From Acidobacteriota bacterium (GTDB taxonomy: Bacteria > Acidobacteriota > Terriglobia > Terriglobales > Acidobacteriaceae), in the NCBI GenBank assembly GCA_021836865.1, contig JAKBHH010000030.1, positions 1-37,046 on the forward strand: 37,046 nucleotides of DNA, written 5' to 3'. Positions 7,528 through 37,046 of this stretch are shown here, piece after piece. The notes below the pieces were generated by a model that saw nothing but the letters and a program-made list of their open reading frames with translations, made no database searches and was not told where the DNA came from. The stretch's first letter is position 1; each line of letters starts with the position of its first letter. Both the position numbers and the translations under genes were made by a program.

Positions 7528-7636
7528 CCCTGCTCCGGTTGCGCCGGACTGCATCAGCGCCCATGCCTGATTCCCACATTTTCGCGCGGCAATCCACAAG
7601 GCAAGACCCGCACTGTGTCGGCCTACACTCAGAAGT

Positions 7637-9025
7637 ATGGCCACCATCCCCAACCTGACTCTCGACGCCGGGCTGCCGGCGAATCTTGACGCAGAAAAGA
7701 CGATTCTTGGCGCGATTCTGCTGGATAACGCGGCGCACGCGGAGGCAGCCGAGCGGCTGGAGACGGATGACTTTTCGCTGGACTCGCATCAGCGCATTTA
7801 CCAGCGCATGACCGAGTTGCTGACCTCGCAGCGCTCGGTAGACATTGTGACGCTCGCAGAGGAACTGGCACGCAATAAGGAGATTGAATCCGTGGGCGGC
7901 GTGGCGTATCTGGCCTCCCTGACCGAGGGTTTGCCGCTGCGTCCGGTGATCGAGGAGTACATCCGGATCGTCAAGGACAAGAGCCTGCTGCGGCGGCTGA
8001 TGGCGATCTGCTCGGCGGCGATTGCGCGGGCGGCGGACCAGAGCGAGCCGGCGCTGGACGTGCTGGGCGCGGCTGAAAGCCAGTTGCTGGAGGTGAGCGA
8101 GAAGGGGATTGTTCGCGGGCTGCAGCAGCTGGACCAGATTGTCGCGAATTCGTTTGGCTCGATTGACAACCTCTACAAGCAGAGCCGCGAGGTGACGGGG
8201 CTGGCCACGGACTTTATCGAGCTGGACCGGCTGACCAGCGGCCTGCAGAAGGGCGAGCTGATTATTCTGGCGGCACGACCGTCGATGGGCAAGACGGCGT
8301 TTGCCATCAACATGGCGCAGAACGCGGCGGTGAATCACAACGCGGTGGTGGCGGTCTTCAGCCTGGAAATGAGCAAGGAGTCGCTGCTGCGCCGCATGTT
8401 GGCGTCGCAGGCGTGGGTGGACCAGCGCAAGCTTCAGACGGGCTTTCTGGGCCGGGAAGATCACGAGAGGCTGCAGAATGCGCTGGGGCAACTGGTGGAG
8501 ACGCGGCTTTTCATCGACGACACGGCGGGGATTTCACTGGCGGAGATGCGGGCCAAGGCGCGACGCCTGAAACAGAACGCTGGGGTGCTGGACCTGATTG
8601 TGGTGGACTATCTGCAACTGATGTCTGCGACGCTGCCTTCAGCGGGCGGCAAGCGGTATGAGAACCGCACGCAGGAGGTCTCGGCCATTTCGCGAGGGTT
8701 GAAGGCGCTGGCCAAGGAACTGGACGTACCGGTGATGGCGCTGTCGCAGCTTTCGCGTGCAAGCGAGCGGCGCGGCGACGACAAGCGGCCCATGCTGAGC
8801 GACCTGCGCGAATCGGGATCAATTGAACAGGACGCCGATGTGGTGGCGTTCATCCATCGCGAGGCGTATTACAACCGCACGGAGGAGATGTCTGAGGCGG
8901 ACAGGGCGAAGTCGGAGATTATTATCGCCAAGCAGCGCAACGGTCCGACGGACACCGTGATTCTGAACTTTATTTCCAAGTACACGCGCTTTGCCAATCC
9001 GGCAGAGTCAGACCAGGGCTCGTAG
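7637..9025 (+). CDS. dnaB: Replicative DNA helicase
   Basis: Hexameric 5'-3' helicase that unwinds DNA at the replication fork and recruits primase. It has 462 residues, a normal length. The N-terminal DnaB domain occupies about residues 10-115. The RecA-like C-terminal domain has Walker A ARPSMGKT (213-220), Walker B IVVDYLQL (321-328) and the RESGSIEQDAD segment (391-401), a position where inteins often sit, though none is present here. The ATG at 7637 begins MATIPNLTLDAG, with no obvious ribosome site upstream. It stands alone and converges on the XRE regulator with a 17-bp gap and no visible terminator. Confidence 0.97.
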   Translation: MATIPNLTLDAGLPANLDAEKTILGAILLDNAAHAEAAERLETDDFSLDSHQRIYQRMTELLTSQRSVDIVTLAEELARNKEIESVGGVAYLASLTEGLPLRPVIEEYIRIVKDKSLLRRLMAICSAAIARAADQSEPALDVLGAAESQLLEVSEKGIVRGLQQLDQIVANSFGSIDNLYKQSREVTGLATDFIELDRLTSGLQKGELIILAARPSMGKTAFAINMAQNAAVNHNAVVAVFSLEMSKESLLRRMLASQAWVDQRKLQTGFLGREDHERLQNALGQLVETRLFIDDTAGISLAEMRAKARRLKQNAGVLDLIVVDYLQLMSATLPSAGGKRYENRTQEVSAISRGLKALAKELDVPVMALSQLSRASERRGDDKRPMLSDLRESGSIEQDADVVAFIHREAYYNRTEEMSEADRAKSEIIIAKQRNGPTDTVILNFISKYTRFANPAESDQGS

Positions 9026-21142: not shown

Positions 21143-22543
21143 ATGGAGTCCAAGCAAAACGCTTCGCCTGACTTCTGCATGGAAGCGCCGCAGCCCAGCA
21201 GCGCAGGCCGCCGCATGGGAGTGCTAGCCCTTTTTATCGTAAGTAGCGCTGTCGCCGCGATTATAGGCAGTTTCATTCTGCACAATAATGGCGCGGCGAT
21301 GGACTATAAGATGATCTATGCAGGCGTGCGTTGCTTTCTTGCGCATCGCGATCCGTATCAGGGCAGCGTAATGGAATCGGCCTGGGTCAAGATTGACGGT
21401 CCGCTGCCAATCGACCCTCTGACCGGGCATGCGCGCCATTTGTGTCAATTCATCTATCCTCCGACGATTGCTACCTTGGTCCCGTTCGCGGAGTTACCTT
21501 GGAATCTCTCGCATCTGGCTTGGATCGCGACAACGATTCTGCTTCTCTCGCTGGGCGGATATTGCATATGGATCGAGAGTGCGGTTCACGCTTCGGACCT
21601 GAGCTTCCTGTTGATCGTCGTGTCACTCGGCACTGGGCCGGTGTTTTTTGTAAGCGCGAACCCGGCGGGGGTGGCCATCGGGCTCTGTCTGATCGCGGCT
21701 TGGTGCTTCATCAGGGAGCAATTCACCTGGGTGGGTGTATTTTGCATGGCAGCCAGTCTTGCGATTAAACCGCACGATGGCTTTCTGGTGTGGACGTGCT
21801 TTCTGCTTGTCGGTGGGGTTCTTCGCCGCAGAGCGCTTCAGGCGTTTGCATTGACCCTGGTGCTATGCCTGCCTGTGATCGGCTGGGTGTGGCACAGCGC
21901 CCCAGGATGGCCTGTTGAACTGCGTGCCAATCTGGCAGCGATCACAGCGCCGGGTGAACTGGACGATCCCCGACCGCAGGCGTCCAGCGACCGAACTGCC
22001 GGCATGATGATTAATTTGCAGGCGGGCATCAGCCTGCTCGATGACGATGAGCGCATTTACAACGCGGTCACGGTTGCAATTTGCGGCTCGATGATGCTGT
22101 TTTGGGCCAGGGAGATTCTGCTGGACCGTCACGCCGCGGGGCACATCTGGTACGCGCTCGCGGCGGCCGCGCCAATGACGATGTTGCTTATCTACCATCG
22201 CTCTTACGATGCCAAGCTGTTATTGATCGGCCTGCCGGCATGCGCGCGATTGTGGAATGGGCGAGGTGCTCGAGGTTGGACTGCACTGCTGCTGGGAGTC
22301 TTTTCAATCGGTTTGATGAATGAGGTGTCCCTGTCAATGCTGGCGTCGATGACAAGTGCTCTCCCTGTTCACCAGTCTGGCTTGAACCGGAATACCCTGC
22401 TTGCGGTTCTCGCGCATCCGGCTCCATTTACCTTGCTGGCGATGAGCCTCTTTTACCTATGGGTGTATAGAGAAATCCGACGCGCCGAGGCAGACACGTC
22501 GATCACGGTGATTGAGCCGTTGAGCATCGCGACTGCCGGTTAG
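21143..22543 (+). CDS. GT87/DUF2029-family membrane protein
   Basis: A 466-residue multi-pass inner-membrane protein with about ten hydrophobic segments, starting at about 25-46. The first outer loop carries AAMDYKMIYAGVRCFLAHRDPY (50-71) followed by CQFIYPP (100-106), typical of DUF2029 (GT87) mannosyltransferase-like proteins, which use lipid-linked sugars outside the membrane. The conserved Asp in MDYK is the likely catalytic or sugar-contact residue. Sugar and acceptor cannot be inferred. The ATG at 21143 has GCAGGAG about 13 bases upstream, a distant ribosome site. It stands alone; the nearest downstream gene converges on it. Confidence 0.7.
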   Translation: MESKQNASPDFCMEAPQPSSAGRRMGVLALFIVSSAVAAIIGSFILHNNGAAMDYKMIYAGVRCFLAHRDPYQGSVMESAWVKIDGPLPIDPLTGHARHLCQFIYPPTIATLVPFAELPWNLSHLAWIATTILLLSLGGYCIWIESAVHASDLSFLLIVVSLGTGPVFFVSANPAGVAIGLCLIAAWCFIREQFTWVGVFCMAASLAIKPHDGFLVWTCFLLVGGVLRRRALQAFALTLVLCLPVIGWVWHSAPGWPVELRANLAAITAPGELDDPRPQASSDRTAGMMINLQAGISLLDDDERIYNAVTVAICGSMMLFWAREILLDRHAAGHIWYALAAAAPMTMLLIYHRSYDAKLLLIGLPACARLWNGRGARGWTALLLGVFSIGLMNEVSLSMLASMTSALPVHQSGLNRNTLLAVLAHPAPFTLLAMSLFYLWVYREIRRAEADTSITVIEPLSIATAG

Positions 22544-34762: not shown

Positions 34763-36742
34763 GTGTATCTGGAATTGAAGAAGCGGCTGGAAGTGCGTCT
34801 CCGCGACGTGCTCAAGGCGAGGTATGATCTTTCGCTGGAGAGCATTCCTGTCGAGACTCCGCCGGAGCTCGAGTTTGGCGAGCTGGCCACGCCGGTGGCC
34901 TTTGAACTGGCGCGCAAGCTGCGCAAGGCGCCTAAGGTGATTGCGCAGGAGATTGCGGCGGCGCTTGGCCCGCTCGACGGTTTTGTGTCCTTTGAGGTGG
35001 CAGGAGCGGGGTATATCAACGCGCGGCTGGACCGGAACGGTGGGGTTCGCATGGTTGCCGGCTGGGAGAGCCCGGCGACGGCTGCCGGCGGAGTGCATTC
35101 GCTGGTCGAGCACACCAGCATCAATCCCAACAAGGCGGCACATATCGGGCATCTGCGCAATGCGATTCTCGGCGACACGTTTGTGCGCCTGCTGCGCGCA
35201 GCCGGGCAAAAGGTGGATGTGCAGAACTACATCGACAACACCGGCGTGCAGGTGGCGGATGTGGTGGTGGGGTTTTTGCATGTGGAGGGCAAGTCTGCAG
35301 CCGATGTACGCGCGCTGCTCGATGATCTGAGACGCAAGGGCGAGCGCATCGATTACTACTGCTGGGATCTGTATGCGAAGACTTCACAGTGGTATACGAA
35401 CGGGACGGACGCGGAGAACGAAGCCCGAAAGAAGCTCCGATATGCGACCCTGCACGAGCTTGAACAGGGCAATCATGAAACGGCCGAGATCGCCGAGCTG
35501 ATTTCGACCGCCGTCTTGCGGCGGCATCTGCAGACCATGCTGCGGCTGGGCATCGAGTATGACTTTCTGCCGCGCGAGAGCGAGATTCTGCACCTGGATT
35601 TCTGGGCCCTGGCGTTTGAGCAGTTGAAGAAAACGGGCGTGCTCTACTTTGAGAACGAAGGCAAGAACAAGGGCTGCTGGGTGATGACGCGGCCCGGCGC
35701 GGAAGCAGCCGACGGCGAGACGGACGAAGACGCGAAGGTAATTGTGCGGTCCAACGGCACGGTGACCTATGTTGGCAAGGATATTGCCTATCACTTGTGG
35801 AAGTTTGGGTTGCTGGGCAAGGACTTCGGCTATAAACCGTTCTTCACGTATCCGAGCCACGAGTGCTGGATTTCAAGTGAAAAAGGCGAGGAGCCGCATC
35901 CGCACTTTGGCGGGGCGCAGGCGATCTACAACGTCATCGACTCCAGGCAGAGCGACCCGCAGGCCAACGTGATTCAGGCTCTGCGGGGGATGGGCCATGC
36001 GGAGCAGGCCGACCGCTACACGCACTTCAGCTATGAGATGGTGGCGCTGACGCCGCGCTGCGCTGTCGAGCTGGGTTACGACGTGTCTGAAGAAGACCGC
36101 GGCCGGACCTACATTGAAGTGAGCGGGCGCAAGGGCTTTGGGGTGAAGGCGGACGACCTGATCGACAAGCTGATTGGCGCGACGCGTGCGGAAGTGGATG
36201 CGCGGCAGACGGGCCGCGACGAGGCGGAGCGCCAGAGGATCGCAGAGCAGATTGCGATTGGCGCGCTGCGCTACTTCATGCTGAAGTTTACGCGCAATTC
36301 AGTGATCGCGTTTGACTTCAAGGACGCGCTGAGTTTCGAGGGCGAGACGGGGCCGTACATCCAGTACGCCGTGGTGCGCGCGCGAAACATCTTTCGCAAA
36401 GCAGGACTCACGCCGGATGGCGTTCTGCGCGATTTTTCCGGAACGGATGCGGGCGGCTATCTTGCAGCCGAGGGCGGCGAAGACATCTGGGCATTGTGGT
36501 TGCGGGCCGGTCGGCGCAGGCTGGTTCTGGAGCAGTGCATCGCGACCTCCGAGCCCGCCTATCTGGCCAAACACGCCTTTCAACTTGCGCAGGAGTTCAA
36601 CAACTTCTACCACAAGCACCATATTCTCACCGAGGAAGACTCGGCGCGGAAGATCCTGCTGCTGGCCACCGCGGCTGTCGCGCTGCGAGAGCTTGTGGCG
36701 GTGCTCGCATGGCTGGGCATCGAAAGCCCGGAGGCCATGTAG
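34763..36742 (+). CDS. argS: Arginine-tRNA ligase
   Basis: Charges tRNA-Arg with arginine. It has 659 residues, longer than the common 560-580, mainly from insertions in the middle. The N-terminal tRNA-contact domain is at about 1-95. The catalytic core follows with SINPNKAAHIGHLRNAIL (119-136), where HIGH is at 127-130. The KMSKS loop is degenerate, as is usual in this family, with SGRKGFGVKADDL in its place. The DALRP-type C-terminal domain ends with LGIESPEAM, a natural family ending. The start is a GTG at 34763 with TGAGG ten bases upstream. It is divergent from metG. The stop is followed, in the same frame, by a remnant of another gene. Confidence 0.96.
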   Translation: MYLELKKRLEVRLRDVLKARYDLSLESIPVETPPELEFGELATPVAFELARKLRKAPKVIAQEIAAALGPLDGFVSFEVAGAGYINARLDRNGGVRMVAGWESPATAAGGVHSLVEHTSINPNKAAHIGHLRNAILGDTFVRLLRAAGQKVDVQNYIDNTGVQVADVVVGFLHVEGKSAADVRALLDDLRRKGERIDYYCWDLYAKTSQWYTNGTDAENEARKKLRYATLHELEQGNHETAEIAELISTAVLRRHLQTMLRLGIEYDFLPRESEILHLDFWALAFEQLKKTGVLYFENEGKNKGCWVMTRPGAEAADGETDEDAKVIVRSNGTVTYVGKDIAYHLWKFGLLGKDFGYKPFFTYPSHECWISSEKGEEPHPHFGGAQAIYNVIDSRQSDPQANVIQALRGMGHAEQADRYTHFSYEMVALTPRCAVELGYDVSEEDRGRTYIEVSGRKGFGVKADDLIDKLIGATRAEVDARQTGRDEAERQRIAEQIAIGALRYFMLKFTRNSVIAFDFKDALSFEGETGPYIQYAVVRARNIFRKAGLTPDGVLRDFSGTDAGGYLAAEGGEDIWALWLRAGRRRLVLEQCIATSEPAYLAKHAFQLAQEFNNFYHKHHILTEEDSARKILLLATAAVALRELVAVLAWLGIESPEAM

Positions 36743-36868
36743 CCGGCGGCTGGAGCTGGCATTGTGGTGGCTGTGGCCGGAAACATGATGCTGATGCCGG
36801 GCTTGCCGCAAGCGCCAAGGGCTCTCTCCATTGACGTGGACGATGAGGGAAACATCACCGGTGTCTGA
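36743..36868 (+). pseudogene. fhs: 3' remnant of formate-tetrahydrofolate ligase gene
   Basis: The 41 codons after the argS stop, in the same frame, read [16 protein letters not shown], then [23 protein letters not shown], then TGA. This closely matches the C-terminus of formate-tetrahydrofolate ligase (the MPGLP, IDVD and GNI.G blocks). The rest of that gene, normally about 550 residues, is missing. There is no start codon in a sensible place, so it is a decayed or deleted remnant and not a gene. The 3' end seems intact, up to the hairpin at 36877. Recombination near the adjacent IS is a likely cause. Confidence 0.7.
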
Positions 36869-36876
36869 CGGGCAGA

Positions 36877-36909
36877 GAGGGATGACATCCAGTCGTGTCG
36901 TCATCCCTC
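36877..36909 (+). terminator. Hairpin after argS and the fhs remnant
   Basis: GAGGGATGAC (36877-36886) pairs perfectly with GTCATCCCTC (36900-36909) around a 13-base loop. No T-run follows. It was probably the terminator of the lost fhs gene and may now end the argS transcript. Confidence 0.5.
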
Positions 36910-36910
36910 C

Positions 36911-37046
36911 AGCTTGACCCTAGAGCATTTCTCCTGATGATGTATAGTTTAGGTGGCGATTCTCCGCGCACATGCTATGGCGCGACCTTATTCGGATGAT
37001 TTGCGGCGGAAGCTGTTGGAGGCCTTCGACCAAGGCAAGGGGAGCC
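36911..37046 (+). mobile_element. Left part of an IS630-like insertion sequence (cut by window edge)
   Basis: The transposase start at 36977 implies an insertion sequence whose left end lies between the hairpin at 36909 and the start codon. IS630 elements insert at TA; possible TA sites occur near 36920 and 36952. The exact end and the inverted repeat cannot be set because the other end is outside the window. Confidence 0.45.
36977..37046 (+). CDS. IS630-family transposase, N-terminal fragment (runs off the window)
   Basis: The last 23 codons visible read MARPYSDDLRRKLLEAFDQG and then KGS. This is the characteristic start of IS630-type transposases (MxxPYSxDLRxxxLxA), the first part of a DNA-binding helix-turn-helix domain. 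The catalytic DDE domain lies outside the window, so whether the gene is intact, or split into two frames as many IS630 genes are, cannot be seen. It lies 108 bases after the fhs remnant and may explain the local rearrangement. Confidence 0.75.
   Translation, partial: MARPYSDDLRRKLLEAFDQGKGS

Follow-up and report, generated by a model that had tools for sequence, protein, structure and literature searches.

A formate-tetrahydrofolate ligase remnant behind argS in an acidobacterium and its sister species, older than the adjoining IS630-type element

The argS locus

The window, the whole stretch of DNA that was analysed (37,046 nucleotides), is an entire contig (C183) of a draft genome of an Acidobacteriota bacterium (G000; 3.98 Mb in 192 contigs, 96% complete). 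Near its right end lies a complete argS gene on the forward strand (34763-36742), which starts with GTG, stops with TAG at 36740-36742 and encodes an arginyl-tRNA synthetase of 659 aa with the Pfam domains PF03485, PF00750 and PF05746. The protein ends in LGIESPEAM, as it does, identically or nearly so, in the congeners compared. Directly after the TAG, the same frame stays open for 41 codons (36743-36865) up to a TGA at 36866-36868, a coincidence of frames that has a 1-in-3 chance. A hairpin with 10-bp arms, assigned to neither strand, follows at 36877-36909 (fold z -2.23, with 4 of 200 shuffles as stable); neither a T-run nor a consensus terminator was found with it. Beyond the hairpin stand the stop codon of a convergent pepA gene for an M17 aminopeptidase (36920-36922, reverse strand), recognised by alignment with the uninterrupted locus of a sister species, and the left end and transposase start of an IS630-type element (36923-37046, forward strand), cut by the contig end and recognised from copies in two congeners. 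Two further reading frames were recorded in the window. A 201-aa antisense frame (36299-36904, reverse strand) runs over the argS end and the 41 codons, is open in both species (positions 7537-8142 of the sister contig) and is probably a by-product of GC-rich coding sequence. A 466-aa frame (21143-22543) has no Pfam match, and no blastn match in the stretch of the sister genome that matches its neighbours.

The 41 codons were originally predicted to be the C-terminus of formate-tetrahydrofolate ligase (Fhs), and the protein search proposed as a check has now found just that. Residues 2-41 correspond to positions 516-555 of the 556 of the Pfam profile PF01268 (E 1.4e-11, with a score of 43.8 bits where the cut-off is 27). 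A phmmer search of the PDB with E up to 10 listed eight distinct sequences, all of them formate-tetrahydrofolate ligases, the best being 3do6 (residues 503-542, E 3.1e-11). Judged by these scores, the resemblance to Fhs lies far beyond chance. The alignment of the last 40 residues with the C-terminus of Fhs (PF01268; PDB 3do6, 1eg7) is free of gaps, and 29-33 of the last 39 are identical to those of nine intact relatives; homology is certain from 36746 on, while the first codon, CCG at 36743-36745, is ambiguous. A full-length Fhs domain has about 540-560 residues, of which some 500 are missing here, and what is left is not an enzyme. The feature at 36743-36868 (forward strand) is accordingly listed as an fhs pseudogene remnant, made up of the last ~40 codons and the stop TGA.

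fhs among relatives

The genus survey covered 80 genomes including that of the window: 17 have a full fhs, two have the tail alone (G000 and the sister species, G070) and in 61, many of them incomplete drafts, neither exceeds the cut-off. Among the 79 congeners of the window genome, an intact fhs is thus found in 17, and 61 are without fhs or remnant over the cut-off; among the genomes at least 90% complete, 13 of 42 have the full gene. Of a further 149 genomes sampled from the family (a few of them from the genus), 26 carry the gene, so that its distribution is patchy in general. In nine of the 17 carriers (G001, G002, G009, G027, G042, G046, G067, G073 and G074), the intact fhs lies directly behind argS; these genes have 533-550 codons and argS-fhs spacers of 22-219 bp. 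A convergent pepA follows in seven of the nine, and is absent from the ~4.2 kb beyond fhs in G042 (up to the contig end) and from the ~2.2 kb fetched beyond fhs in G073, so that the order argS-fhs-pepA is not universal among intact loci. We also compared 109 distinct argS downstream stretches from the genus and the wider family (told apart by their first 130 bases, and 600 bp or longer in 105 cases), of which nine hold an intact fhs, two hold the remnant and 98 have no match at E 0.1.

A profile search of the window genome, itself a 96%-complete draft, found no fhs over the cut-off besides the tail; the sole other match covers 31 profile positions (E 0.22, under the cut-off). Likewise, no other fhs exceeds the cut-off in the 96%-complete draft of G070. 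It is possible that a gene lies in the missing part of either draft. Together, the intact argS-fhs loci of nine congeners and the search that found no second copy uphold the proposal that a deletion joined the end of argS to the end of fhs. Measured against the intact loci, the window lacks an estimated 1549-1701 bp. The junction falls within 36740-36748 (forward strand), as delimited by the nine intact loci and the sister species. With regard to micro-homology at the break, the spacers between argS and fhs differ from relative to relative, and none that precedes an intact fhs could be aligned.

The same junction is present in the sister species (contig L076, JAJZGF010000001.1, of MAG LL4.bin32, 147 kb), whose sequence is 94% identical to the window over 483 bp across it and whose ArgS is 96% identical. 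There, argS stops at the corresponding position, the frame of the remnant is likewise open, and pepA comes next at once, without an insertion element. The two remnants differ at nine of their 123 bases; 37 of the 41 residues are identical and four are not. Because the junction is common to both species, the deletion must be older than their split. The label pepA is based on the gene of this contig (Peptidase_M17, E 2e-115), and that of smpB on its SmpB match (E 1.4e-56). In G070, pepA and smpB are separated by a gene (9863-12097 of L076) for a 744-aa protein, in which a spermine synthase domain and, below the cut-off, an MFS match were recognised. This gene also neighbours pepA in G000; its protein matched nothing in the seven loci with the order argS-fhs-pepA.

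A quick ArgS tree with a midpoint root and 26 weak forks was used just for the pairing of the two remnant species, which group with support of 100. Its input comprised 67 of the 80 genus genomes, with G061 and G003 dropped as too short, and four outside rows, which fell inside the drawing. With support of 88, the pair joins G067, which has an intact fhs behind argS, and G038, G032 and G033, which have no fhs. The label 'fhs behind argS' needs six changes on this tree, four of them forced by well-supported branches, which shows repeated gain or loss of fhs at this place; gains cannot be told from losses on it, and acquisition of fhs at the argS locus, as against ancestry in the whole genus, is conceivable. 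The ArgS match was split within one long frame near ArgS residue 560 in G025, G037, G044, G050 and G054, and likewise near residue 190 in G014, G028 and G057, which suggests inserted stretches in several congeners.

Possible roles of the remnant

It had also been pointed out that readthrough of the argS stop would append the Fhs-derived tail to ArgS. If the TAG were occasionally read through, and if the longer ArgS were useful, the tail would have acquired a new role in these two sister species only. In both, the tail keeps an open frame in register with argS, and its four residue changes fall slightly below a neutral mean of 6.1; yet the probability of four or fewer is 0.12, the in-frame position is no more than the 1-in-3 coincidence given above, and nine random substitutions would keep the frame open in 86-89% of cases, so that an open frame says nothing in favour of use. 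Moreover, the extension is found behind just 2 of the 109 distinct argS ends rather than being conserved in relatives, and the argS stop itself varies among them (51 TAA, 43 TAG, 14 TGA and one not read).

The pN/pS ratio of the remnant between G000 and G070 is 0.36, based on just nine differences, and lies above those of all 12 orthologues compared (0.02-0.30; argS 0.11). The 12 were drawn from 19 window genes, the other seven being unmatched in the G070 stretch, six of them beyond its contig end. The nine differences fall 5, 1 and 3 at the first, second and third codon positions, and as many non-synonymous changes as in the remnant occur in 68 of 4048 overlapping 41-codon windows over the 12 genes, or in 27 of 1269 over argS, dxr and pfk alone. 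The changes fit weak or no selection, with the little power that nine differences afford. Taken together, these observations make a functional readthrough product very improbable.

The remnant might instead have been retained because it serves the argS mRNA as a 3' untranslated segment. The hairpin behind it, whose arms are unchanged in G070, agrees with such a role and may be an end-of-transcript structure between the convergent argS and pepA. Against this, the compared congeners without fhs have other sequences after argS, so that the remnant is not generally needed, and there are just the nine differences by which to judge retention; we regard this role, too, as having very little likelihood.

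The IS630-type element

IS elements often cause nearby deletions, and the original prediction tentatively linked the loss of fhs to the one beside the remnant. That an IS630-like element lies there is borne out. Its copies in G068 and G059 (loci L221 and L222) are 1012 bp long, flanked by TA on either side and bounded by 13-bp inverted ends, and the second open reading frame of the L222 copy carries a DDE_3 domain (E 3.2e-30). The TA target, the inverted ends and the DDE transposase are thus features read from the congener copies, as the window holds the left 124 bp alone; on the DDE_3 domain, the target and the layout, we take the element to belong to the IS630 family, which has these features in common with the copies. 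The target TA in the window, 36921-36922, lies, by comparison with the sister species, inside the pepA stop codon, and since the element begins with G, insertion would have re-formed a TAG stop. The right junction is absent from the assembly, in which contig C107 breaks off within the 5' part of pepA. Elsewhere in G070 (contig C123), 127 bp match the left end of this element at 91%, with no right end recognised. A sigma-70-like match at 36914-36941 (forward strand; TTGACC, 16 nt, GATGAT; 9 of 12 positions, 0.1 expected) straddles the left boundary, points into the element and may be due to chance. Neither the tail nor the end of the element found a match when searched against plasmids.

The link to the deletion did not hold. 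The element starts 54 bp beyond the remnant stop, close enough to raise the suspicion, but within the pepA stop codon and not at the deletion edge, and G070 carries the same deletion in an uninterrupted argS-remnant-pepA locus. Since the sister species has the junction without the element, the element arrived after the deletion. A causal role is thereby ruled out, barring an ancestral element that was precisely excised in G070, and we give it next to no credence. Equally little credence attaches to an assembly artefact, which might be suspected since the draft assembly consists of 192 contigs, the window being one of them, and which is ruled out by the second assembly, where the junction lies inside a 147-kb contig of the other species.

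Proposed history of the locus

The most probable history, to which we assign a probability of about 0.94, is that of an fhs gene reduced to a remnant by a deletion before the window species and G070 split, with the insertion element following later. In the ancestor, fhs would have stood between argS and the convergent pepA. A deletion of ~1.55-1.70 kb would then have removed the argS-fhs spacer and all but the last ~40 codons of fhs, and, with its edge at or just after the argS stop, would have left ArgS whole while Fhs was lost. Afterwards, in the lineage of the window species, the IS630-type element would have entered the TA in the pepA stop codon. Today, the remnant would form a non-coding stretch at the 3' side of the argS transcript, presumably functionless, between argS and the hairpin.

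The remnant is like bacterial deletion pseudogenes in being truncated and common to two sister species, with its neighbours intact and in order, and an intact gene stands at the same place in nine congeners. There is no difference in kind, and the in-frame join to argS is a curiosity. It is real, well explained and an ordinary gene remnant, older than the adjoining element. No argS-fhs remnant appeared in the titles and abstract openings of the matches listed in a literature search. Annotators are warned that the tail is neither part of ArgS nor a working fhs.

Metabolic consequences

Fhs links formate to the folate one-carbon pool, and the loss had been thought to matter because the window also carries glycine cleavage genes, which feed the same pool. 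The genes are there (gcvH and both halves of gcvP), whereas the weight placed on the loss finds little backing: 61 of the 79 congeners, many of them incomplete drafts, have neither fhs nor remnant over the cut-off, and the window genome contains a folD-type gene (PF02882, 220.5 bits); of purU and purT, the former has a match above the cut-off there and the latter has none. The FolD route to 10-formyl-tetrahydrofolate from carbon supplied by glycine cleavage is an established pathway. Going by its gene content, the window species can probably make 10-formyl-tetrahydrofolate in this way, and the loss of Fhs therefore looks tolerable, as it does in the 61 congeners without a match. The metabolic weight of the loss is small.

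A single locus thus displays an intact fhs in nine congeners, a remnant in two sister species and no fhs behind argS in others, and offers a neat, datable case of enzyme loss. These observations suggest that fhs is readily dispensed with in these acidobacteria.
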